IMG/VR virus record: IMGVR_UViG_3300031746_000055
Span: 1 to 42,321 of that record
Length of the DNA stretch: 42,321 nucleotides
Direction: 5' to 3' (one strand)
Source: a virus
Numbering within the stretch: position 1 is the stretch's first letter; each line of letters opens with the position of its first letter. The notes below the pieces were generated by a model. That model was given only the letters and a program-made list of their open reading frames with translations. It had not been told where the DNA came from and ran no database searches. Shown piece by piece: positions 11,756-42,321 of the stretch. The translations under genes were made by a program, and so were the position numbers.

Positions 11756-12030
11756 TGGTTTCAAGATATGACAATTTAGATCGCGATACTACTAAATGGG
11801 AACTTATACAGATTAGAGTAAGTCCTGATTTAAAAGACCGGATTAAGGTTGCCGCCAAGTTAAACGATACGGATGTTTCAGAACTGACAAGGGCGTTCTG
11901 GAAGGCATGGTTAGTGTCTGAACAGCAGGATCCGCAACCTGCGCCATTATTTAACCGTTTTGATTGGGCTTTGGATAGGGTAAGGAAGTTTTTTAGGCCG
12001 GAGAAGCAATATCATTTTTCACGCAATTAA
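11755..12030 (+). CDS. Ribbon-helix-helix type DNA-binding protein
   Basis: The 91-residue protein contains an N-terminal strand and two helices with the pattern Q-I-R-V-S-P-D-L-K-D-R-I-K-V-A-A ... D-V-S-E-L-T-R-A-F-W (about residues 19-55), characteristic of CopG/Arc-like RHH regulators. The tail is basic. It is a candidate repressor for the repeated operators at 11037-11079, by proximity only. Confidence 0.65.
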   Translation: MVSRYDNLDRDTTKWELIQIRVSPDLKDRIKVAAKLNDTDVSELTRAFWKAWLVSEQQDPQPAPLFNRFDWALDRVRKFFRPEKQYHFSRN

Positions 12031-12031
12031 A

Positions 12032-12223
12032 ATGGACAGAGAACTTGAAGAATGGTATAAATTGCATCAATTCCATTTTTATAGTGGCAGTTATGAGACT
12101 AAAGATTTGGCGCGATTTTTAGGTGTTTCTACAAGGACAATACAACGGTGGCTCAAGAATCAAGGAACGCCCAATAAAATCCAGTTATCCAAGATTAAAA
12201 AGTACCTGGAAAATAATGCTTGA
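12032..12223 (+). CDS. Small helix-turn-helix protein
   Basis: The 63-residue product contains a clear HTH: T-K-D-L-A-R-F-L-G-V-S-T-R-T-I-Q-R-W-L at about residues 23-41, as in excisionase/MerR-like or Cro-like small regulators. It starts one base after the preceding stop without a clear ribosome site, so translational coupling is likely. Its stop lies a few bases before the -35 box of the promoter at 12220. Confidence 0.75.
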   Translation: MDRELEEWYKLHQFHFYSGSYETKDLARFLGVSTRTIQRWLKNQGTPNKIQLSKIKKYLENNA

Positions 12224-12248
12224 CAACGACAATTTTTCTCTTTATAAT
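12220..12248 (+). promoter_or_regulatory. Perfect consensus sigma70-type promoter
   Basis: TTGACA at 12220-12225 and TATAAT at 12243-12248 are separated by exactly 17 bases. The predicted start is about 12255, and the first transcribed bases (12255-12266) read GTTCTTTGAGAG, a boxA-like sequence. The RNA then runs into two terminator hairpins before any gene. Confidence 0.85.
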
Positions 12249-12282
12249 AAAGTCGTTCTTTGAGAGATAGATAAATACCTAT

Positions 12283-12304
12283 AAACCGATAAGTTCGGTT
12301 TTTT
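12283..12304 (+). terminator. Rho-independent terminator A
   Basis: AAACCGA (12283-12289) pairs with TCGGTTT (12295-12301) around a TAAGT loop and is followed by T residues through 12304. It lies about 30-50 bases after the predicted start of transcription. Confidence 0.7.
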
Positions 12305-12383
12305 AATACCGCCGTTCGTCGCACCTAGGGGTATAATGGTTCAGGAGTTAGCAGGATAATGTAATATCTCGGTTATAGACGAG

Positions 12384-12432
12384 AAAGCCGAACTTGATAA
12401 TGAGAAATCATTACAAAGGTTCGGCTTTTTTA
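12384..12432 (+). terminator. Rho-independent terminator B with nested GAAA hairpin
   Basis: A 10-bp stem AAAGCCGAAC (12384-12393) / GTTCGGCTTT (12419-12428) is followed by more T residues. Its loop holds a second perfect hairpin, TAATGA-GAAA-TCATTA (12398-12413). Strong terminator geometry. Confidence 0.8.
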
Positions 12433-12488
12433 TTGGTTTTATCAAAGAATTGTAATGGAAAAGGCATAATGATATTACGAGGTTAAAT

Positions 12489-12920
12489 ATGGAAAAACAA
12501 GCATTCACAAGTAGGCGAGATTTTTTATTTAATAAACCTACCCCAGAATGCCAAAAGCGTGAGCTGAGGCCGCCTAAAGGACAAAATCTCGCAGGTGTGA
12601 ATGATTCTGGGGTTTCTTATTCTAAATACCGGCTAAATGCTATCAGGAATTATATGTATATTTATATTGCTTGGTGTATTACTCATCCAAATAATCCCAA
12701 GAAATTTAGAGAGATCCGTTGTGAAAAATGTGGAATCTATGAGGGATTAGAATTACATCATACAAAATATGCTCCTAAACAAATGGTAACAATTGAAGAT
12801 ATAAAAATTCTTTGTAATAAGTGCCATCGCAATGCAAGGAAATCTTTATCAATGTTAAGAACTATTTTTAAAAACGGAAAACGATATTGTATAGCAAGAA
12901 ATTTTAAATTTGAATATTAG
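12489..12920 (+). CDS. HNH endonuclease-like protein
   Basis: The 143-residue protein has an HNH nuclease signature in its C-terminal half: C-E-K-C, then L-E-L-H-H-T-K-Y, then L-C-N-K-C-H-R-N, giving the zinc pairs and the catalytic His. It is probably a free-standing homing-type or accessory nuclease. The first ~55 residues have low-complexity composition and their DNA holds a 10-bp perfect inverted repeat (12540-12549/12604-12613). The true start may therefore be a later ATG such as 12655. Confidence 0.7.
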   Translation: MEKQAFTSRRDFLFNKPTPECQKRELRPPKGQNLAGVNDSGVSYSKYRLNAIRNYMYIYIAWCITHPNNPKKFREIRCEKCGIYEGLELHHTKYAPKQMVTIEDIKILCNKCHRNARKSLSMLRTIFKNGKRYCIARNFKFEY

Positions 12921-12929
12921 GAGACCCCC

Positions 12930-13448
12930 ATGAAACTCTATATAGATTTCATCGAGCCCAAATCCCCCTTGCCGAAATTTCTCCCGTTTTTCTTCGGTGT
13001 ATTAGTAATGTTAACGATTATCTTAATGGTTACGATGGCAAGGGCGACCGAGCCTTTATTTATCGCACAATCCCAAATCGGTTTAGGTGAGTTAGGCGCT
13101 AATAATCAAGGGCAATATGTTAAAGAATATCTTAATGGACAAGAAAACTTACCTTGGTGCGCAGGATTTATCTCTTATTGTTTTAAGAAAGCAAATTATC
13201 ATTTGCCTTATTTATTAAGGGCAAAAAGTTATCTTAAAATCGGCACAAAAGTTACCAACCCAAAGGCAGGAGATTTGATTATATTCTCTCGGAAAAACGG
13301 AGGGCATATCGCAATTATAGAAAAGGTTACCAAAGATACCATTATCACCATAGAAGGAAATTTGGGCGAGTATCCTTCCAAAGTTAAACGAGTAATCTAC
13401 AAAAGAAATCATATTAAAAACTTATTAGCATTTGTGAGGATAAAATGA
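12930..13448 (+). CDS. CHAP-type endolysin with N-terminal membrane segment
   Basis: The 172-residue protein is a cell-wall hydrolase of the CHAP/amidase kind. Catalytic Cys77 lies in L-P-W-C-A-G-F-I-S-Y-C, His126 in G-G-H-I-A-I-I-E, and an E-G-N-L-G follows near residue 142. Residues about 17-37 are a hydrophobic segment ending A-R-A, either a cleavable signal or a signal-arrest-release anchor, so export would be independent of a holin. An AGGAGACC ribosome site precedes the ATG. It is encoded far from the other lysis-type genes at 40909-42321. Confidence 0.8.
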   Translation: MKLYIDFIEPKSPLPKFLPFFFGVLVMLTIILMVTMARATEPLFIAQSQIGLGELGANNQGQYVKEYLNGQENLPWCAGFISYCFKKANYHLPYLLRAKSYLKIGTKVTNPKAGDLIIFSRKNGGHIAIIEKVTKDTIITIEGNLGEYPSKVKRVIYKRNHIKNLLAFVRIK

Positions 13449-13564
13449 AAAAAAGAAATACCTGTAAAGAGAGAACAAGTGAGAAATGGTGCGTATGTGG
13501 TTTTAAGAAGCATAGCAAGAACCACGAACAAGGTGAACATCATCAACGGAGTTTAAAGAAATGA
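13445..13564 (+). CDS. 39-residue basic protein with C-x-C
   Basis: An ATG overlapping the endolysin stop opens a 39-residue frame (MKKRNTCKERTSEKWCVCGF...) with Cys residues near 7, 16 and 18 and a histidine-rich tail (HSKNHEQGEHHQ), suggesting metal binding. Its stop overlaps the next start (ATGA). Function unknown. Confidence 0.5.
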   Translation: MKKRNTCKERTSEKWCVCGFKKHSKNHEQGEHHQRSLKK

Positions 13565-13719
13565 CCTTCAAACTTCTCTCCAAGAAACCAAGTCGAATGA
13601 AGGACAAAGTAGCCGAGAGATTTAAGAGGATACAAGAAGATAGGCGCGAACAACAAAGATTGCGGCATAGCCCAGAGTATCAACCGGAACAGGATGGGTT
13701 TATATCGGACAAAACCTAA
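13561..13719 (+). CDS. 52-residue charged protein
   Basis: This short frame is coupled to the preceding one by ATGA overlap. The product is basic and helical (KDKVAERFKRIQEDRREQQRLR). It is followed 12 bases later by the recT-like gene. Not recognised. Confidence 0.5.
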   Translation: MTFKLLSKKPSRMKDKVAERFKRIQEDRREQQRLRHSPEYQPEQDGFISDKT

Positions 13720-13731
13720 AAGGAGGATGAG

Positions 13732-14631
13732 ATGGTAGAAGAAAAAAAAGAAGTGGCAAAAAAAGACGATATAAGAAGTTTGATTGCTTCCCCAGAAGCC
13801 AAGAAACAGTTTGCTTTAGCATTGCCAAAGCACTTAAAGCCAGATAGGTTTATCAGGATTGCTATAACTGCAATAAATAAAAACCCGAAATTATTGCAAT
13901 GCACAAAAGCAAGTTTAATTTCTTGTCTTATGGATTTATCGCAATTAGGACTTGAACCAGATGGTCGGAAGGCACATCTTATTCCTTATGCTGATAAATG
14001 CACTCTTATTATTGACTATAAAGGTCTTGTTGATTTAGCACGCCGGAGTGGAGAGATAGCCGATATACACGCTGATATAGTTTATGATAATGACGAGTTT
14101 GAATATTCTTTCGGCACAGAGGGTAAATTAATCCATAAGCCAAGTCTTAAAAGCCGTGGCCTTGCAAAAGCGGCCTATTCTTTTGTCCGGCTAAAAGACG
14201 GTTCTTTCAGCTATGAAGTAATGAATATTGAGGAAATAGAAGTAATCCATAAGCGTTCAAAAGCAGGAACTTCTGGCCCCTGGATTACCGATTGGGCCGA
14301 GATGGCCAAAAAAACAGTATTCCGCAGACATTCAAAATGGTTGCCAGTATCGGCAGAATTTCAGATGGCAACTGAAAAAGATTATGATGTGCCTATTGAC
14401 ATTAAGGCTGATCCATTTGAAGAAACAAGTATTAAGCCAGAGGTTGAAATGCCGCAAGAGAAAAAAACCGAAGAAAAAAAGACCGAAGAAGATAAACCAC
14501 CGGAAATCAAAGAAATGCTTTGCCCAGGTTGTGATCAAATTATCACAAAGGCAGAGGAAGAATACTCTATGAAGAAGTTTAATAAAAAACTCTGCCGGAG
14601 TTGTCAACGCGAGGAAGGTAAGCGTGAATAA
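13732..14631 (+). CDS. recT: RecT-family single-strand annealing protein with C-terminal zinc finger
   Basis: The 299-residue protein matches the RecT annealase family. It has LQCTKASLISCLMDLSQLGLEPD, then 'AHLIPYADKCTLIIDYKGLVDLARRSG', the most conserved core, then 'GPWITDWAEMAKKTVFRRHSKWLP'. Residues about 235-260 are an E/K-rich linker, and the C-terminus carries C-P-G-C ... C-R-S-C, a four-cysteine zinc site not usual in RecT. It would anneal ssDNA in recombination-dependent replication with the nuclease and SSB downstream. A strong AAAGGAGGATGAG ribosome site precedes the ATG. Confidence 0.9.
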   Translation: MVEEKKEVAKKDDIRSLIASPEAKKQFALALPKHLKPDRFIRIAITAINKNPKLLQCTKASLISCLMDLSQLGLEPDGRKAHLIPYADKCTLIIDYKGLVDLARRSGEIADIHADIVYDNDEFEYSFGTEGKLIHKPSLKSRGLAKAAYSFVRLKDGSFSYEVMNIEEIEVIHKRSKAGTSGPWITDWAEMAKKTVFRRHSKWLPVSAEFQMATEKDYDVPIDIKADPFEETSIKPEVEMPQEKKTEEKKTEEDKPPEIKEMLCPGCDQIITKAEEEYSMKKFNKKLCRSCQREEGKRE

Positions 14632-15223
14632 TTTTGCAGTAATTGACATAAAAACAGGATTTGAAATGTTACCCTATACAGCCATCCAAGAGGCGGCCTA
14701 TGAGTTTATCTATGCCGAAACCCTAAAGAGAAAAGAGGAAATCAATCTCCAATTCTTTGAGGATAAGCATATTTATAAACTCAATGGTATGCCTCTTGTT
14801 TCGGTTACTAAAATATTGCAGATGGCGGGGCTTGCCGATTTTTCTAAAATCCCATTTGAAAGACTTGAGGCTTCAAGGAAATTCGGCCAAGCCGTCCATA
14901 GGGCTTGCGAATTATTTGATAAAGGCACTCTTGACGAACGTTCTCTTGACACTAATCTCTGGCCATATCTTGATGGATGGGTTGCTTGCAAAAAGGAATA
15001 TAAATGGGATTTTGTAGCCATTGAACAACCCATAATCTCAACAGTTTATAAGGTAGCCGGAACACCCGATAGGATAAGCAAAAGCGATAGAAGGCGCAGG
15101 ATAGCAGCTTTGCTTGGGCCAGAAGGAACTTACAAGGTAACCGAATACACAAATAAAGGCGACTGGCAGGTGTTTTTAGCGGCCTTGTCAGTCGTTAATT
15201 ACAAAATAAGAAATAAAATTTAA
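14624..15223 (+). CDS. PD-(D/E)XK exonuclease with displaced catalytic motif (possible circular permutation)
   Basis: The 199-residue protein is the expected partner of RecT. It shows 'HIYKLNGMPLVSVTKILQ', 'ASRKFGQAVHRACE', 'VAGTPDRIS' (catalytic Asp) and a C-terminal 'YTNKGDWQVFLAALSVVNYK', in the order usual for phage RecB/Cas4-like nucleases. However, the (D/E)XK segment that normally follows GTxDR, here 'AVIDIKTG...TAIQEAAYEF', is at the extreme N-terminus (about residues 5-27). The protein thus reads as a circular permutant, or a middle segment was moved. The start is a GTG in a GAGGAAGG context, overlapping recT by 8 bases. A homing endonuclease gene follows directly. Confidence 0.75.
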   Translation: MNNFAVIDIKTGFEMLPYTAIQEAAYEFIYAETLKRKEEINLQFFEDKHIYKLNGMPLVSVTKILQMAGLADFSKIPFERLEASRKFGQAVHRACELFDKGTLDERSLDTNLWPYLDGWVACKKEYKWDFVAIEQPIISTVYKVAGTPDRISKSDRRRRIAALLGPEGTYKVTEYTNKGDWQVFLAALSVVNYKIRNKI

Positions 15224-15231
15224 GGAGAAAT

Positions 15232-15762
15232 ATGCCTAAGGGAACTTATATAAGAACTAAACCAGTTTGGAATAAAGGGAAAAAATGCAAACCTCTATCT
15301 ATAGAACATAGGAAAAAATTAAGTTTATCTTTAAAAGGTATTAAGCGAAAACCTTTTACTGAAGAACATAGAAAGAAGTTAAGCATTAGTCATAAAGGGT
15401 GCTTCCCATCAGAACAAACTCGTAAAAAATTAAGTATCGCACATAAAGGTAAAATTGGATATCAAAGGGGTAAGTCCGGGGAAAATACTACAAATTGGAG
15501 AGGCGGAAAAAGAATCCATTCAAATGGTTATGTATGGATTTATTCTCCTCTTCATCCCTATCACTCTGCACAAAAATATGTGCTTGAACATCGTTTGGTT
15601 ATGGAGAAAAACCTTAAAAGATACCTTAATCCTAACGAGATTGTTCATCATATAAATGGAAACCATCAGGATAATCGGATAGACAATTTGATGCTTTTTT
15701 CAGATAGTAAATCACATTTAAATTACCATCGTTTAATATTAAAAAAGGAGAGGAACAAATGA
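15232..15762 (+). CDS. Free-standing homing endonuclease, NUMOD3 repeats plus HNH
   Basis: The 176-residue protein has three NUMOD3-like DNA-binding repeats in its N-terminal half (IEHRKKLSLSLKG, TEEHRKKLSISHKG, SEQTRKKLSIAHKG), then an HNH module with I-V-H-H-I-N-G-N-H-Q-D-N-R-I-D-N-L about residues 140-160. It belongs to the family of mobile HNH genes found next to phage replication genes. A GGAGAAAT ribosome site precedes it, and it overlaps the next gene by four bases. It lies between two recombination genes, so it is probably a selfish insertion. Confidence 0.9.
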   Translation: MPKGTYIRTKPVWNKGKKCKPLSIEHRKKLSLSLKGIKRKPFTEEHRKKLSISHKGCFPSEQTRKKLSIAHKGKIGYQRGKSGENTTNWRGGKRIHSNGYVWIYSPLHPYHSAQKYVLEHRLVMEKNLKRYLNPNEIVHHINGNHQDNRIDNLMLFSDSKSHLNYHRLILKKERNK

Positions 15763-16421
15763 TTGCAGAAACCTTGGAATTAAAACCAGAAGAACAGGCA
15801 ATAGTCAAAAGGGCAGAAGATATTTCTACCCAGATAAGTAATTTTAAGATTACTAGCCAGGATGAATACAATGTATCAGGGGAATACCTTAAATCTGTAA
15901 AATCTACTTATAAACAGATTGAGGATTTAAGGATGTCAATGACCCGGCCCCTTGATGATAGCAAAAAGCGGATTATGGATTTCTTCCGCAAGCCCCTTGA
16001 TATACTTACTAATGCCGAGGGAGTGCTAAAAAGGGGTATTCTTATGTATCAGCAGGCTCAGGAGAGGGCAAGGATTGAGCAGGAGAGGAAGTTACAGGTA
16101 GAGGCCGAAAAGAAACGCCAGGAAGCCTTAGCAAAGGCAGAGGCGGCTAGGGCTGAGGGTAAAGAGGCAAAGGCCGAGAAATATGAAGATAAGGCCAATG
16201 GGATTATTGCTCCCACACTTGCCCCGACTGTCCAAAAGGTATCAGGGATTTCAACTAAAATGGTATGGAAATTTGAGGTAATAGATGAAAAGGCCATACC
16301 AAGAGAATACCTTATTCCTGATTTGGTAAAGATAGGCAAGGTTGTCCGGTCAGTAGGAAATACACTTCCAATCCCAGGGGTAAGGATATACCCAGAAGAA
16401 ACAATAGCCGTAGGGAGGTAG
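15759..16421 (+). CDS. Phage recombination-associated coiled-coil protein
   Basis: The 220-residue protein has a helical N-terminal region, a long coiled coil around residues 95-145 (RARIEQERKLQVEAEKKRQE, EAAKA-type repeats) and a compact C-terminal domain (VWKFEVIDEKAIPREYLIPD, IPGVRIYPEE). Proteins with this layout, including the 'f.v.de..IP.ey..pd...i...v...g....ipGv.i' C-terminus, are regularly found between phage recT/exonuclease genes and ssb. The exact function is unknown. The ribosome site AAGGAGAGG lies within the end of the homing endonuclease gene. Confidence 0.7.
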   Translation: MIAETLELKPEEQAIVKRAEDISTQISNFKITSQDEYNVSGEYLKSVKSTYKQIEDLRMSMTRPLDDSKKRIMDFFRKPLDILTNAEGVLKRGILMYQQAQERARIEQERKLQVEAEKKRQEALAKAEAARAEGKEAKAEKYEDKANGIIAPTLAPTVQKVSGISTKMVWKFEVIDEKAIPREYLIPDLVKIGKVVRSVGNTLPIPGVRIYPEETIAVGR

Positions 16422-16424
16422 ATA

Positions 16425-16793
16425 ATGCTAAATAAAATTGTTGTTGTAGCTAATCTTACCAAAGACCCGGAACTTCGTTATACCCCCAACGGAACAGCAG
16501 TTTGTAATTTGCGCCTTGCCATTAACCGTAAATATAAATCAGGCGAAGAATTTAAGGAAGAAACCTGTTTTATAACTGCAATCGTATGGGGCAAACGAGC
16601 CGAGAATTGTAATGAGTATCTAAAAAAGGGTAACCCTATTTTTATTGAGGGTAGGTTACAGTCTCGGTCTTGGGATGGACAGGATGGAAAGAAACAATAT
16701 GCCACCGAAATCGTAGCTGAGAATATCCAGTTTTTAGATAGAACCAAAGAAGGAACATCACAAGAAATAGAGGAATTACCACCAGAAGCATAA
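16425..16793 (+). CDS. ssb: Single-stranded DNA-binding protein
   Basis: The 122-residue protein is a typical bacterial-type SSB OB fold: MLNKIVVVANLTKDPELRYT, then 'G.AVCNLRLAINR', then 'FITAIVWGKRAENCNEYLKKG', then 'IFIEGRLQSRSWDGQDGKK'. The tail is acidic (QEIEELPPEA) but lacks the canonical D-D-I-P-F tip, so docking to host SSB partners may differ. It would coat ssDNA for RecT and the replisome. It follows the coiled-coil gene with three intervening bases. Confidence 0.95.
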   Translation: MLNKIVVVANLTKDPELRYTPNGTAVCNLRLAINRKYKSGEEFKEETCFITAIVWGKRAENCNEYLKKGNPIFIEGRLQSRSWDGQDGKKQYATEIVAENIQFLDRTKEGTSQEIEELPPEA

Positions 16794-17051
16794 ATGCCCC
16801 CCATCCAATTAGATTTATACCTTAACAAAGAACAGGCCTTAGAGGAGTGGTGTCGGGATAAGGGATTTTTCTCAAGCCACGATGTCAATTTTTATGGAAC
16901 TACCCATTTCTTTGATTCTGCCACGCGTAGGATCAGGGAGTGGGTTCAGGTCGGTAAGGTTAAGCATTTGAGCAAGGATGAGGCAATTTTTAGGGGATTT
17001 AAAACGAAGTGTGCGGTGTATGAGTGGATAAACATAAATGAATGCCAATAA
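16794..17051 (+). CDS. Small protein of unknown function
   Basis: The 85-residue product starts immediately after the ssb stop, implying coupled translation. It contains a pattern 'QALEEWCRDKGFFSSHDVNFYG...RRIREWVQVGKVKHLSKDEAIFRGF' suggestive of a winged-helix or helix-turn-helix fold in the middle. The position between ssb and the replication initiator suggests a replication or regulatory role. Not recognised. Confidence 0.6.
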   Translation: MPPIQLDLYLNKEQALEEWCRDKGFFSSHDVNFYGTTHFFDSATRRIREWVQVGKVKHLSKDEAIFRGFKTKCAVYEWININECQ

Positions 17052-17099
17052 ATTAGCAGATGAAATATTGATTAACTATATTGCCTTAAGGAGCAGAAA

Positions 17100-17840
17100 A
17101 TGAAATGGTTTGAACACGAAACAGACGCTTTAGAACATCCTAAAATTAAGGCTTTAATCAAGGAATTTGGATCAGATGGATATTATGTTTGCTTTGGAAC
17201 TTGGGAAAAAATCGGTAAATATGGTGATAAATATTTGCGTTTACCCTTCTCGAAATACCCCAAAACACTTTTTGAAGAGGACTTAAGATTGTCCATAGAT
17301 AAAATAGAGAAGATTTGGGTATTTATGAGCAAATTATCGTTGTTATCTCCTAACTCTTTAAAAAACAATATCTTATATTCTTCTAAATTAAAGGAACGAT
17401 GCGATGAATATCATAAAAAACTCCAGAGAAAGTCCCGACAAGATACGGATAATGTCGTTGTAGATAAGAATACAATAGATAAGATTATAATAGAATACAT
17501 TAAAAACAAAGGGTGGGAAAAGCAATCTCAAGAAAAAAACATATTAAACTCTATTTATAAAAGAAGTGGAAAAGCGGCAAAAGAATTATTCTTGCTTACC
17601 AATGATATAAAAATTTCATTATTGGCAATCCAATGGACAGCTCAAGTCTGTCAACAGAAAAAATTATCTTGGACATTAGAAACAGTTATATCTTGGTATC
17701 CAGATTATTTATTACATAAAAAAACAATCAAAGAAGGCGATTATAAGGCCGCCGATCCTGACTGCCAGATATGCGCTGGAACGGGTTGGGATAAAACTGA
17801 CGGGAGCAAGAAATTATGTCTTTGTCGGCAAAACAGATAA
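17100..17840 (+). CDS. Replication initiator-like protein with N-terminal wHTH and C-terminal zinc motif
   Basis: The 246-residue protein opens with WFEHETDALEHPKIKALIKE and 'GSDGYYVCFGTWEKIG', the pattern of phage replication proteins with a Lin1244/Lin1753-like N-terminal winged helix. A basic linker and a helical domain (about residues 120-215) resembling DnaD/DnaT-type regions follow. The C-terminus has C-Q-I-C-A-G-T-G-W and C-L-C, a DnaJ-like zinc site. It probably binds the phage origin and recruits the host helicase. The ribosome site is TTAAGGAGCAG. No helicase gene is encoded nearby. Confidence 0.65.
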   Translation: MKWFEHETDALEHPKIKALIKEFGSDGYYVCFGTWEKIGKYGDKYLRLPFSKYPKTLFEEDLRLSIDKIEKIWVFMSKLSLLSPNSLKNNILYSSKLKERCDEYHKKLQRKSRQDTDNVVVDKNTIDKIIIEYIKNKGWEKQSQEKNILNSIYKRSGKAAKELFLLTNDIKISLLAIQWTAQVCQQKKLSWTLETVISWYPDYLLHKKTIKEGDYKAADPDCQICAGTGWDKTDGSKKLCLCRQNR

Positions 17841-17989
17841 GCTTTGTCAATGAGCAGGCCAAGGGTAAAACCAAAAAGGAAATTTTGGATATGGTCGGAT
17901 TCTTATATAAAGACAATATCCGTAGGTTTATAAGAAAGAAGAGAAGGCCACAATCAATCAAGGATATTCTGCACAAAGAGAATGAATAA
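17816..17989 (+). CDS. 57-residue basic protein
   Basis: An ATG inside the end of the initiator gene opens a short frame (MSLSAKQISFVNEQAKGKTKKEILDM...), basic and helical, with R-R-F-I-R-K-K-R-R-P near the middle. Its stop overlaps the next start by eight bases. Possibly nucleic-acid binding; not recognised. Confidence 0.5.
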   Translation: MSLSAKQISFVNEQAKGKTKKEILDMVGFLYKDNIRRFIRKKRRPQSIKDILHKENE

Positions 17990-18617
17990 AACTAAAATTG
18001 AATGGTGCGATTATACTTGGAATCCGCTTGTAGGTTGTAAACGAGGATGTCCATATTGTTATGCGAGAAAAATCTTTAATCGTTTTAATCCTGGCATGCC
18101 ATTTGAGCAAATATCAAATTGGGATGAACGATTAGAACAACCATTGAAAATCAAAAAACCAAGCCGTATCTTTGTTGGTTCAATGTCTGATGTTGAGTTT
18201 TGGTCAAAGGCACAGATGATAAATGTTTTAGATATAATTAAACAATGCCCCAAACACATTTTTATCTTTCTTACAAAGAATCCTTATGCTTATAGGAAAT
18301 TTGGGAAATATCCTAAGAATTGCTGGCTCGGATTTACTGTTACACGAAGAGAAGAATGGGGTAGAGCGGTAAAAATGGTTAGGGTAAAAAGAGATAACTT
18401 AAAATTTATCAATATTGAACCGATACTTGGAAAAATAGATACTTCTTATTTCTGGTTGTTTGATTGGATTATATTGGGTGGACTTACCCCTAAACCAATA
18501 CATAAACAAAAATGGATTAAAGATTTTTTAGATGGCGGAAAGAAATTATCAACACCTGTTTTTATAAAAGATAACGCCCATTATCCACAAATAAGAAAAG
18601 AATTTCCGATTGCATAA
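17982..18617 (+). CDS. Phage Gp37/Gp68 family (DUF5131), radical-SAM-like protein
   Basis: The 211-residue protein begins T-K-I-E-W-C-D-Y-T-W-N-P and has Cys19, Cys23 and Cys26 in V-G-C-K-R-G-C-P-Y-C-Y-A, the CxxxCxxC iron-sulfur motif of radical-SAM enzymes. Later segments 'RIFVGSMSDVE', 'FIFLTKNP' and 'LKFINIEPILGKID' match the Gp37/Gp68 phage family. The substrate is unknown for the family. It sits at the start of the accessory block. Confidence 0.85.
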   Translation: MNKTKIEWCDYTWNPLVGCKRGCPYCYARKIFNRFNPGMPFEQISNWDERLEQPLKIKKPSRIFVGSMSDVEFWSKAQMINVLDIIKQCPKHIFIFLTKNPYAYRKFGKYPKNCWLGFTVTRREEWGRAVKMVRVKRDNLKFINIEPILGKIDTSYFWLFDWIILGGLTPKPIHKQKWIKDFLDGGKKLSTPVFIKDNAHYPQIRKEFPIA

Positions 18618-22031: not shown

Positions 22032-24338
22032 ATGGTTAGTATTTTAATCCTTTGCTATGGACAAATCACCTATACCAAACAATGCCTAAAAAGCCTCTTT
22101 GAGTTCACTTCGCAAGTAAAGACGCCTTTTGAGGCAGTCGTAGTGGACAATGGGTCGGTTGATGGCACAAGAGAATATCTGCAAGGTCTTGAGAGTGCAG
22201 GTAAGATTAAGGCGATATATAATCAGGACAATAGGGGTTTCCCGGCAGCCAACAATCAAGCGGCCAAGGTTGCCACAGGTGAATACCTATGTTTGCTTAA
22301 TAACGACACAATCCTTACTGATGGTTGGCTAGAAAAACTTCTTCGTTGCATAAAATCAGATAGTCAACTTGCCGCAGTGGGCCCCTATACTTCGTTTTCT
22401 TCTGGTTATCAACAAGTGCATCCACAACCTAATTATCGGGGAGAAGAAGAATTAAAGAAATATGCGGAGAAATTTAATGGAGAAGAGAAGTATGTGGATT
22501 TTCTGGTGTTCTTTTGCGTACTGATAAAGCGCAAGATATGGGATGAGATGGGTGGTCTGGATGAGGACTTTGGCCAGGGGTGCTTCGAGGACAATCTTTT
22601 TAATTATCGTTGTCTTGAGAAAGGTTACAAACTCAAAGTAGCCGGGGATTGTTTTATTCATCACTATGCTGGGATTACATTTAACACGAAAGACCCTAAG
22701 AAACTCAAAGAATATGCCTCGCTTATGGCACGCAACCAGAAGATATTCCTAAAGAAGATAGAGAGATATGAAACGGTATCTTTATGTATGATTGTAAGCG
22801 ACCAAGAAAAACCGGAAACCCTAAAGAAATGCTTGGATAGTATCTATGAGTGGGTGGATGAGATTTGTATTGTATTTAATTATAAATGGTTTAAGAATAT
22901 ATGGAAATTAAAGATGTTTAAACAACTTGTGGATAGTTATCGTAATATAATTATTATACCTACTAAAGACAAATTGCTATTGGAAAGTTCTAACATATCA
23001 GGTAACGATGTGTTGACAGGAAATGAAGAAGAGTTATTCTTTGGTTATAAATTTAGAACCCAAATCGAAACTCAATATTTTAAATTCACTAACTTCTCCG
23101 ATATGCGCAACAAATCCCTTGCTATGGCTACAAGTCGGTATGTTCTTTGGCTTGACTGTGATGATAAAATGATATCTCCTGCTAGTATTCGAGACCTCAT
23201 ACTCAAGAATCCACACATAGATGTGTTTAAGGTTAAGATATTGTCTTATACCGAAATCAAGACCATAGAAACTATCATCCACAACCGGCTATTCCGTAGG
23301 GTGAAAGACGGCAAAACCCCCTATTGGGTTAATTCTTGCCACGAAGATATTTCCTACTCGATGAATGAATTAAAATATACCTACGCCATAACTGACCTGA
23401 CTATAAAGCATTTCGGCTATCTAAACCCAAAGGCCTGGTTAGCCAAGAACAAGCGTAACCTGAAACTTATGCTTGAGGATATAGCCGAGATAAAAAATGA
23501 AATAGAAAAATTTCCTGTAGTAATTGAAGAGATTAAAGAAAAACGAGAAGGCCGCCTAAGTATGATTTACTATGGCTTAGTGAATGCCTATATCATACTA
23601 GCAAGTGTGATGAAGCCTAAGCAGAAACACGATACTCTTGTTCAAGCATTGAATACAACCGATGAATGTATTAAATTACTCAAGAACGAAGATCCGCTTA
23701 TGGCAAAGATGTGGATGCTACGCGGAACGGTCTGTATGGATGCTGGGCAGGAACTAGCGGCCAAGCAGTCATATCACAAGGCTTATGACGAATTCAAGCA
23801 GCCAGAAGCAGGAATAAATTTATCTCACATATACCTTGGTGAAAAGAAGTGGAATAAGGTGATAGAGATACTTGATGAGATAAACGCCAAATACAAGGGG
23901 GCATACCCTTTTGGTAGCCTTTCGCATGACCCTGTTCAGATGCACACTTTGCTTTTAGAGAAACTCGGCCATGCCTGGGCAAACAAGGCGCAGGAATGTA
24001 AGTCTAACCCGGAGGCTTTTGACGAATATATGAAGAAAGCCGAAGGCTACTACCGTGAATGCCTGAATATCCGGCCGAAGTTAGAAGTAGCGAATCTGCT
24101 TGTGCAGATACTCTGTAATACAAATCGGGTAGATGAGGCGGCGCATCTTATCATAAAGGCGGTGAATACTTGGCCGGGTTATTTTCTTGGATGGTATCAT
24201 CTGGGAGAATATGAACTCTTAAATAAGAGAAAATACACAGCGCGACTTTTTTACAAAGAAGCGTTAAGGCTCAAGCCGGAGCATAAAGAAAGTTTGAAGA
24301 ATTTGAGGGCGATAGAACAAAATAAGGAGATAAAATAG
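22032..24338 (+). CDS. Tandem GT2 glycosyltransferase with C-terminal TPR region
   Basis: The 768-residue protein has two family-2 glycosyltransferase domains. The first (about 1-220) shows V-V-V-D-N-G-S-V-D-G-T near residue 38, L-L-N-N-D-T near 89 as the metal-binding DxD equivalent, and 'GGLDEDFGQGCFEDNLFNYRC'. The second (about 245-430) begins 'VSLCMIVSDQEKPETLKKCL' and has L-W-L-D-C-D-D near 372. The rest (about 480-760) is TPR-like, with W-x-x-L/G and A-x-x-x-Y-x-x-A helices such as 'AWANKAQECKSNPEAFDEYM'. It probably modifies a surface glycan or a virion protein. The ribosome site is AAAGGAGTATTTA. Confidence 0.9.
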   Translation: MVSILILCYGQITYTKQCLKSLFEFTSQVKTPFEAVVVDNGSVDGTREYLQGLESAGKIKAIYNQDNRGFPAANNQAAKVATGEYLCLLNNDTILTDGWLEKLLRCIKSDSQLAAVGPYTSFSSGYQQVHPQPNYRGEEELKKYAEKFNGEEKYVDFLVFFCVLIKRKIWDEMGGLDEDFGQGCFEDNLFNYRCLEKGYKLKVAGDCFIHHYAGITFNTKDPKKLKEYASLMARNQKIFLKKIERYETVSLCMIVSDQEKPETLKKCLDSIYEWVDEICIVFNYKWFKNIWKLKMFKQLVDSYRNIIIIPTKDKLLLESSNISGNDVLTGNEEELFFGYKFRTQIETQYFKFTNFSDMRNKSLAMATSRYVLWLDCDDKMISPASIRDLILKNPHIDVFKVKILSYTEIKTIETIIHNRLFRRVKDGKTPYWVNSCHEDISYSMNELKYTYAITDLTIKHFGYLNPKAWLAKNKRNLKLMLEDIAEIKNEIEKFPVVIEEIKEKREGRLSMIYYGLVNAYIILASVMKPKQKHDTLVQALNTTDECIKLLKNEDPLMAKMWMLRGTVCMDAGQELAAKQSYHKAYDEFKQPEAGINLSHIYLGEKKWNKVIEILDEINAKYKGAYPFGSLSHDPVQMHTLLLEKLGHAWANKAQECKSNPEAFDEYMKKAEGYYRECLNIRPKLEVANLLVQILCNTNRVDEAAHLIIKAVNTWPGYFLGWYHLGEYELLNKRKYTARLFYKEALRLKPEHKESLKNLRAIEQNKEIK

Positions 24339-41967: not shown

Positions 41968-42067
41968 AGAACCTCCACGCATTTGGTGGGGGAAAGTAGG
42001 AGAGCAACCTTCAGAAGTGTGGCCGAATTATGATTGGATAATTATATCAAGAGAAGATTATAAATGA
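41867..42067 (+). CDS. Rz1-like outer-membrane lipoprotein (o-spanin candidate)
   Basis: The 66-residue product has a basic N-terminus, a hydrophobic segment (LLLVCLLCVGI) and a lipobox L-Q-G-C with Cys26 at about residues 23-26. A short Pro-containing mature part (TVKEPPRIWWG) follows. It begins in a different frame inside the preceding gene. Its stop overlaps the next start (ATGA). This is the best evidence for a diderm host. Confidence 0.7.
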   Translation: MRYLKDRRIQKLLLVCLLCVGILQGCKHTSPTVKEPPRIWWGKVGEQPSEVWPNYDWIIISREDYK

Positions 42068-42321
42068 ATGAGTTTAGATTAGGCACTTTAGCGGCCATAG
42101 CATTAGGAATTTGTGTAGTTGACTGCTTTTTTTGGATGTGGGGCGGACGTTCTAAAAAATGGAGACGCAGGTTCATTGGTTCAACTATTCAGACATTATG
42201 TATAAATATCCTTGCTCTGATTACCGGCACTTGGGTCTGGCAGTTTACCATTTCCTTAATTCCAGAGGCAGGTTCGCGTTCTATGGGTTATGGTGGAGAT
42301 GAAATAAGAGAGAAGGTGATT
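42064..42321 (+). CDS. Multi-pass membrane protein, 5' part (continues at 1)
   Basis: The ATG at 42064 overlaps the lipoprotein stop. The frame is open for 86 codons to the window end and continues through the repeat into the ORF ending at 355, giving 161 residues. This first part has a hydrophobic N-terminal segment (LGTLAAIALGICVVDCFFWM), then a basic loop (GGRSKKWRRRF) and a second segment. Not recognised. Confidence 0.8.
   Translation, partial: MNEFRLGTLAAIALGICVVDCFFWMWGGRSKKWRRRFIGSTIQTLCINILALITGTWVWQFTISLIPEAGSRSMGYGGDEIREKVI
42195..42321. repeat. Right copy of 127-bp terminal direct repeat
   Basis: Identical to 1-127. See the left copy; its exact length and the reading frame across the joint indicate a circularly closing assembly. 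Confidence 0.95.

Follow-up and report, generated by a model that had tools for sequence, protein, structure and literature searches.

A phage exonuclease, probably still working, with an apparently non-cyclic order of its PD-(D/E)XK core

The window, that is, the whole 42,321-nucleotide stretch of viral DNA analysed here (IMGVR_UViG_3300031746_000055), carries on its plus strand an operon in which the gene of an annealing protein is followed by that of an unusually ordered exonuclease. The genes concerned are:

13732-14631, plus strand: RecT-type single-strand annealing protein (Pfam RecT, 1.2e-49; PHROG 148, 6.5e-83)
14624-15223, plus strand: permuted PD-(D/E)XK exonuclease of 199 aa, with the segment order B-A-C
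15232-15762, plus strand: free-standing HNH/NUMOD3 homing-type endonuclease (Pfam HNH_3, 6.5e-9; NUMOD3, 2.3e-6)
15759-16421, plus strand: next operon gene, annotated as an exonuclease (PHROG 10477)

The exonuclease gene opens with a GTG codon, has the ribosome-binding-like sequence GAGGAAGG upstream of it, and overlaps the RecT stop by 8 nt at its 5′ end. RecT is the usual partner gene of a RecE-type phage exonuclease. The HNH gene is a separate insertion in this operon: it follows the exonuclease and precedes the next gene of the operon, and it is absent from the corresponding place in the relative L008, where a normal-order exonuclease is also followed by a gene resembling 15759-16421. Its part in the rearrangement, which the first-pass annotation had considered, is a bare possibility, since no observation ties the two together and L008 is a single comparison. 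No Rfam match was obtained in 12000-18000, where we looked for RNA elements, for example a group I intron, that might account for the order, and no second intact exonuclease copy was found in the window phage or its sister phage. A megablast search with positions 1-25000 of the window found no DNA relatives among sequenced phages.

Judged from its sequence, the product of 14624-15223 is a phage exonuclease of the RecE/lambda-exo type (MGME1-like) with a PD-(D/E)XK core; a phage PD-(D/E)XK exonuclease is what the first-pass annotation had proposed. The product matches the PHROG 298 exonuclease profile at 8.4e-21 and, at 1e-52, a profile that we built from 43 ordinary relatives drawn from phage records and from viral and genome contigs. 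The Pfam PDDEXK_1 match (0.0089) lies under the Pfam cut-off, as expected if the elements are scrambled, which is also a warning that profile searches score such rearranged enzymes poorly. All the family-invariant residues are nevertheless present. The motif VIDIKTG..TAIQEAAYEF occupies residues 6-28, GTPDR residues 146-150 and DWQVFLAAL residues 180-188.

In which order do the conserved segments occur? When the reference profile was aligned with the protein, positions 2-192 were covered once, in three pieces that tile with almost no gap or overlap: profile positions 117-148 fall on residues 4-35 (17.2 bits), positions 2-117 on residues 41-158 (114.4 bits) and positions 149-192 on residues 155-198 (31.8 bits). 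If the pieces are named A, B and C as they follow each other in ordinary relatives, the order here is B-A-C instead of A-B-C:

14624-14728, plus strand: block B, residues 1-35, with the (D/E)XK strand (D8-I-K10) and the QxxxY helix (Q22, Y26), normally located between A and C (profile tiling; modelled as strand 4-11 followed by helix 18-35)
14729-14743, plus strand: B-to-A linker RKEEI, DNA AGAAAAGAGGAAATC (sequence)
14744-15085, plus strand: block A, residues 41-154, ordinarily the N-terminal part, which contains H92, E96 and GTPDR (D149) (profile tiling; invariant columns)
15086-15220, plus strand: block C, residues 155-199, C-terminal as in ordinary relatives but attached directly to A, at the site that B occupies in them (profile tiling)

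At its profile match block B reads FAVIDIKTG...QEAAYEF, and its invariant residues D8, K10, Q22 and Y26 correspond to D121, K123, Q134 and Y138 of the normal relative L014. Block A runs NLQFFEDKHIYKLNG...GTPDRIS and its start aligns to the Met of normal relatives, while block C runs RRRRIAALLGPEGTYKV...DWQVFLAAL. Exactly at the A-C join, ordinary alignments place 29-52 extra residues in the relatives. Of 7,260 ways of moving an N-terminal block in silico, the best one cuts after residue 35 and inserts after residue 154; it restores A-B-C and lifts the best-domain score from 114 bits to 191. With the block shuffled, the score was 152 ± 3.4 bits, with a maximum of 165 (n=500). Taken by themselves, the first 39 residues score 22.1 bits, compared with a maximum of 9.7 for shuffles. 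The reordering test and the shuffles thus indicate that the match of B is not due to chance.

This profile order bears out the first-pass annotation in that the (D/E)XK strand and the following helix are now N-terminal and in that the cut falls between core strands. The same annotation had likened the arrangement to a circular permutant, and here it fails, since the C-terminal part has not moved. A rotation would give B-C-A or C-A-B, so a circular permutation was rejected; on the profile evidence the rearrangement reads as a non-cyclic block transposition. A-B-C, which comparison with homologues of the same exonuclease family gave as the usual order, is a trait of the PHROG 298 family, and the protein is accordingly a rearranged descendant of that family and not an ordinary member.

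Apart from the window, B-A-C was found in a single contig, IMGVR_UViG_3300032053_000168 (locus L002). Every other relative found that spans the region has A-B-C, be it from the 71 other viral contigs, the 13 genome contigs or the 4 phage records; L100, cut by a contig end, and L052, which is distant, are uninformative for block order. In the scan of all open frames of these loci, 125 frames (many contigs being represented twice) were A-B-C, and only the two carriers were B-A-C. Among the relatives that alignment scans retrieved from genomes and viral contigs, there were no further permuted or B-A-B-C members. Since the contig is metagenomic, an assembly chimera or misjoin comes to mind. Against it, the second contig, which shares only about 26 kb with the window, has the same order, and around the A-C join the two contigs diverge by about 20% in nucleotides. 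They belong to different phages: of the window, 26.4 kb aligns to the second contig with a mean identity of 93.6%, and large parts are unshared. We therefore rejected misassembly, which we regard as extremely improbable.

Comparison of the two B-A-C alleles gives information about age and selection. Over codons 1-133, and with them the whole of B, the alleles are identical, whereas the tract spanning the A-C join (15032-15131) has 79% identity. Because the diverged tract crosses the join, the excision of B would most simply predate the split of the two alleles. Over codons 134-199, a tract that includes the A-C join and has B outside it, the alleles differ by 19 synonymous and 8 nonsynonymous substitutions (dN/dS 0.085); over codons 134-188 only 6 amino-acid changes are observed against 17 expected without selection. 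As measured by these substitution counts over codons 134-199, the joined A-C protein has been under purifying selection since the alleles split.

How could such a chain fold? In the PD-(D/E)XK fold, the D-containing strand and the strand that follows flank the (D/E)XK strand and are antiparallel to each other. A short loop can thus close the gap between them while B fills it from the N-terminus. AlphaFold2, run on the permuted chain with 32 sequences of full-length relatives in which only the window and L002 proteins cover B, returned a confident model (pLDDT 92.8, pTM 0.86); for the ordinary relative L014 the values were 96.6 and 0.89. The strand and helix of B in the permuted model are equivalent to strand 116-123 and helix 129-141 of L014, and four residues connect the D-containing strand (150-153) to the next one (158-164). 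The hairpin strands near the A-C join are more broken than in the L014 model. The best fold match of both models is human MGME1, with Z 9.9 over 133-139 aligned residues (model range 54-199) for the permuted chain and Z 17.8 over 161 for L014; the shortfall roughly equals the length of B, for which an aligner bound to chain order has no place. Among solved structures, MGME1 was also the sole match by sequence, a weak one. Confidence values and strand assignment of the model together suggest that B is placed in the sheet between its usual neighbour strands.

The explanation that we favour, to which we assign a probability of roughly 0.78, is that the enzyme is non-cyclically permuted, has B refitted in its fold and is active as the partner of RecT. 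The segment with the DIK strand and the QxxxY helix would have left its site between the GTxDR strand and the following one to become the N-terminus, with A and C directly joined. In the folded protein it would slot back between those two strands, so that the metal site (H92, E96, D149, D8 and K10, with Q22 and Y26) would be rebuilt through different chain connections. In phage recombination systems an exonuclease pairs with a RecT-type annealing protein. Its position behind RecT and its family assignment make the protein the probable exonuclease half of a RecE/RecT-like pair; we infer that it retains nuclease activity and most probably still resects DNA ends for RecT.

That the rearrangement instead destroyed the nuclease, leaving an open reading frame that merely persists, would agree with a rearranged core, with the finding of just two carriers and with the slightly irregular strands near the join. 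We hold such decay to be improbable, because the frame is open with every invariant residue kept, dN/dS is about 0.08 across the A-C join, the AlphaFold2 model is confident and translational coupling to RecT is good. Another alternative concerns the origin only, the final protein being identical: B could have been deleted in place and the B of another family exonuclease acquired ahead of the gene, perhaps while a DNA break beside the homing endonuclease was being repaired. The several HNH genes and the mosaic identity of the region are in favour of capture, as is the ability of RecT-type recombination to join short similarities. Nevertheless, the profile pieces tile with almost no gap or overlap and no donor was found. 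B is too short for placement in a tree. We see capture as the less probable origin, albeit one to be taken seriously.

For the permuted enzyme as we read it, the likely route is a tandem duplication, which would yield B-A-B-C or A-B-C-A-B-C, and then deletions, although no duplicated intermediate was seen among the relatives fetched from viral contigs and genomes. "Permutation by duplication" is the term used in PMC2096629, and this route has been proposed for other permutations. The linker codons AGA AAA GAG GAA ATC are suggestive, at most, of a relict ribosome-binding site before the ancestral start of A (residue 41). Besides, the 10-nt sequence AGGATAAGCA recurs without mismatch, as a direct repeat, close to either end of block A (14760-14769 and 15071-15080). 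Its chance probability is about 0.003 for that position, which was chosen post hoc, whereas a 10-nt repeat anywhere in the stretch has one of about 0.37; it is possibly a trace of the rearrangement, possibly chance.

With PHROG 298 exonucleases paired with RecT/ERF-like genes (e.g. UEP18748 of Shewanella phage vB_Sb_QDWS, or that of contig IMGVR_UViG_3300005910_000083), the protein shares the A, B and C segments, the invariant residues, the size and the position behind the annealing-protein gene; it differs from them in its B-A-C order, the direct A-C joining and the GTG start at B. Likewise, its A and C segments match the PD-(D/E)XK core of human MGME1 (PDB 5zyu, 8xa9; the best match), RecE (3h4r) and lambda exonuclease (1avq), in all of which, unlike here, strand order is sequential and the (D/E)XK strand comes after the D strand. 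Folds are known to change by circular permutation. In the literature searched we found no PD-(D/E)XK nuclease described as permuted, whether circularly or non-cyclically; an earlier description elsewhere is possible.

Whether non-cyclic permutations arise naturally is asked in PMC2096629, which describes one in an engineered Arc repressor; its answer for nature is a structural candidate only, the proposed pair AML1/CBF and riboflavin synthase, resting on structural similarity over 42 residues. As in those cases, core elements are here reconnected in an order unreachable by circular permutation. Unlike in the proposed natural pair, homology of the window exonuclease is visible in the sequence (about 35-40% identity) and has neighbourhood support. 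Ancestral and rearranged forms are thus related by sequence and share the operon setting, and there is evidence that the rearranged one is under selection, which makes natural non-cyclic permutation directly testable in a 199-residue enzyme and its ordinary relatives. The protein appears folded and under selection, and is probably a rare natural shuffled fold that still works. We further consider it likely that an enzyme core has here undergone a natural non-cyclic permutation, functional and traceable in the sequence, and that the strand and helix with half of the catalytic site, now N-terminal, reinsert into the sheet.

Some observations concern the surroundings of the gene. Positions 13590-17023 compared with 2968-6400 of L002 form a mosaic in which long identical stretches alternate with tracts of 79-90% identity, one of them over the A-C join; this suggests recent recombination or gene conversion between both phages in the operon, and the identity over the first two thirds of the exonuclease gene also points to recent recombination. 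HNH-type genes occur at several sites in or near the operon (12489-12920 and 15232-15762 in the window; 838-1467 in L002), and those upstream of RecT differ between the window phage and the sister phage. The 768-aa protein encoded at 22032-24338 has weak glycosyltransferase matches (PHROG 13126, 2.6e-7). Finally, the sister contig (L134) is circularly offset with respect to the window and crosses its ends (42060-42257 corresponds to L134 8255-8453, and position 1 to L134 8391), which suggests that the genome is circular or terminally redundant and that the window contains nearly all of it.
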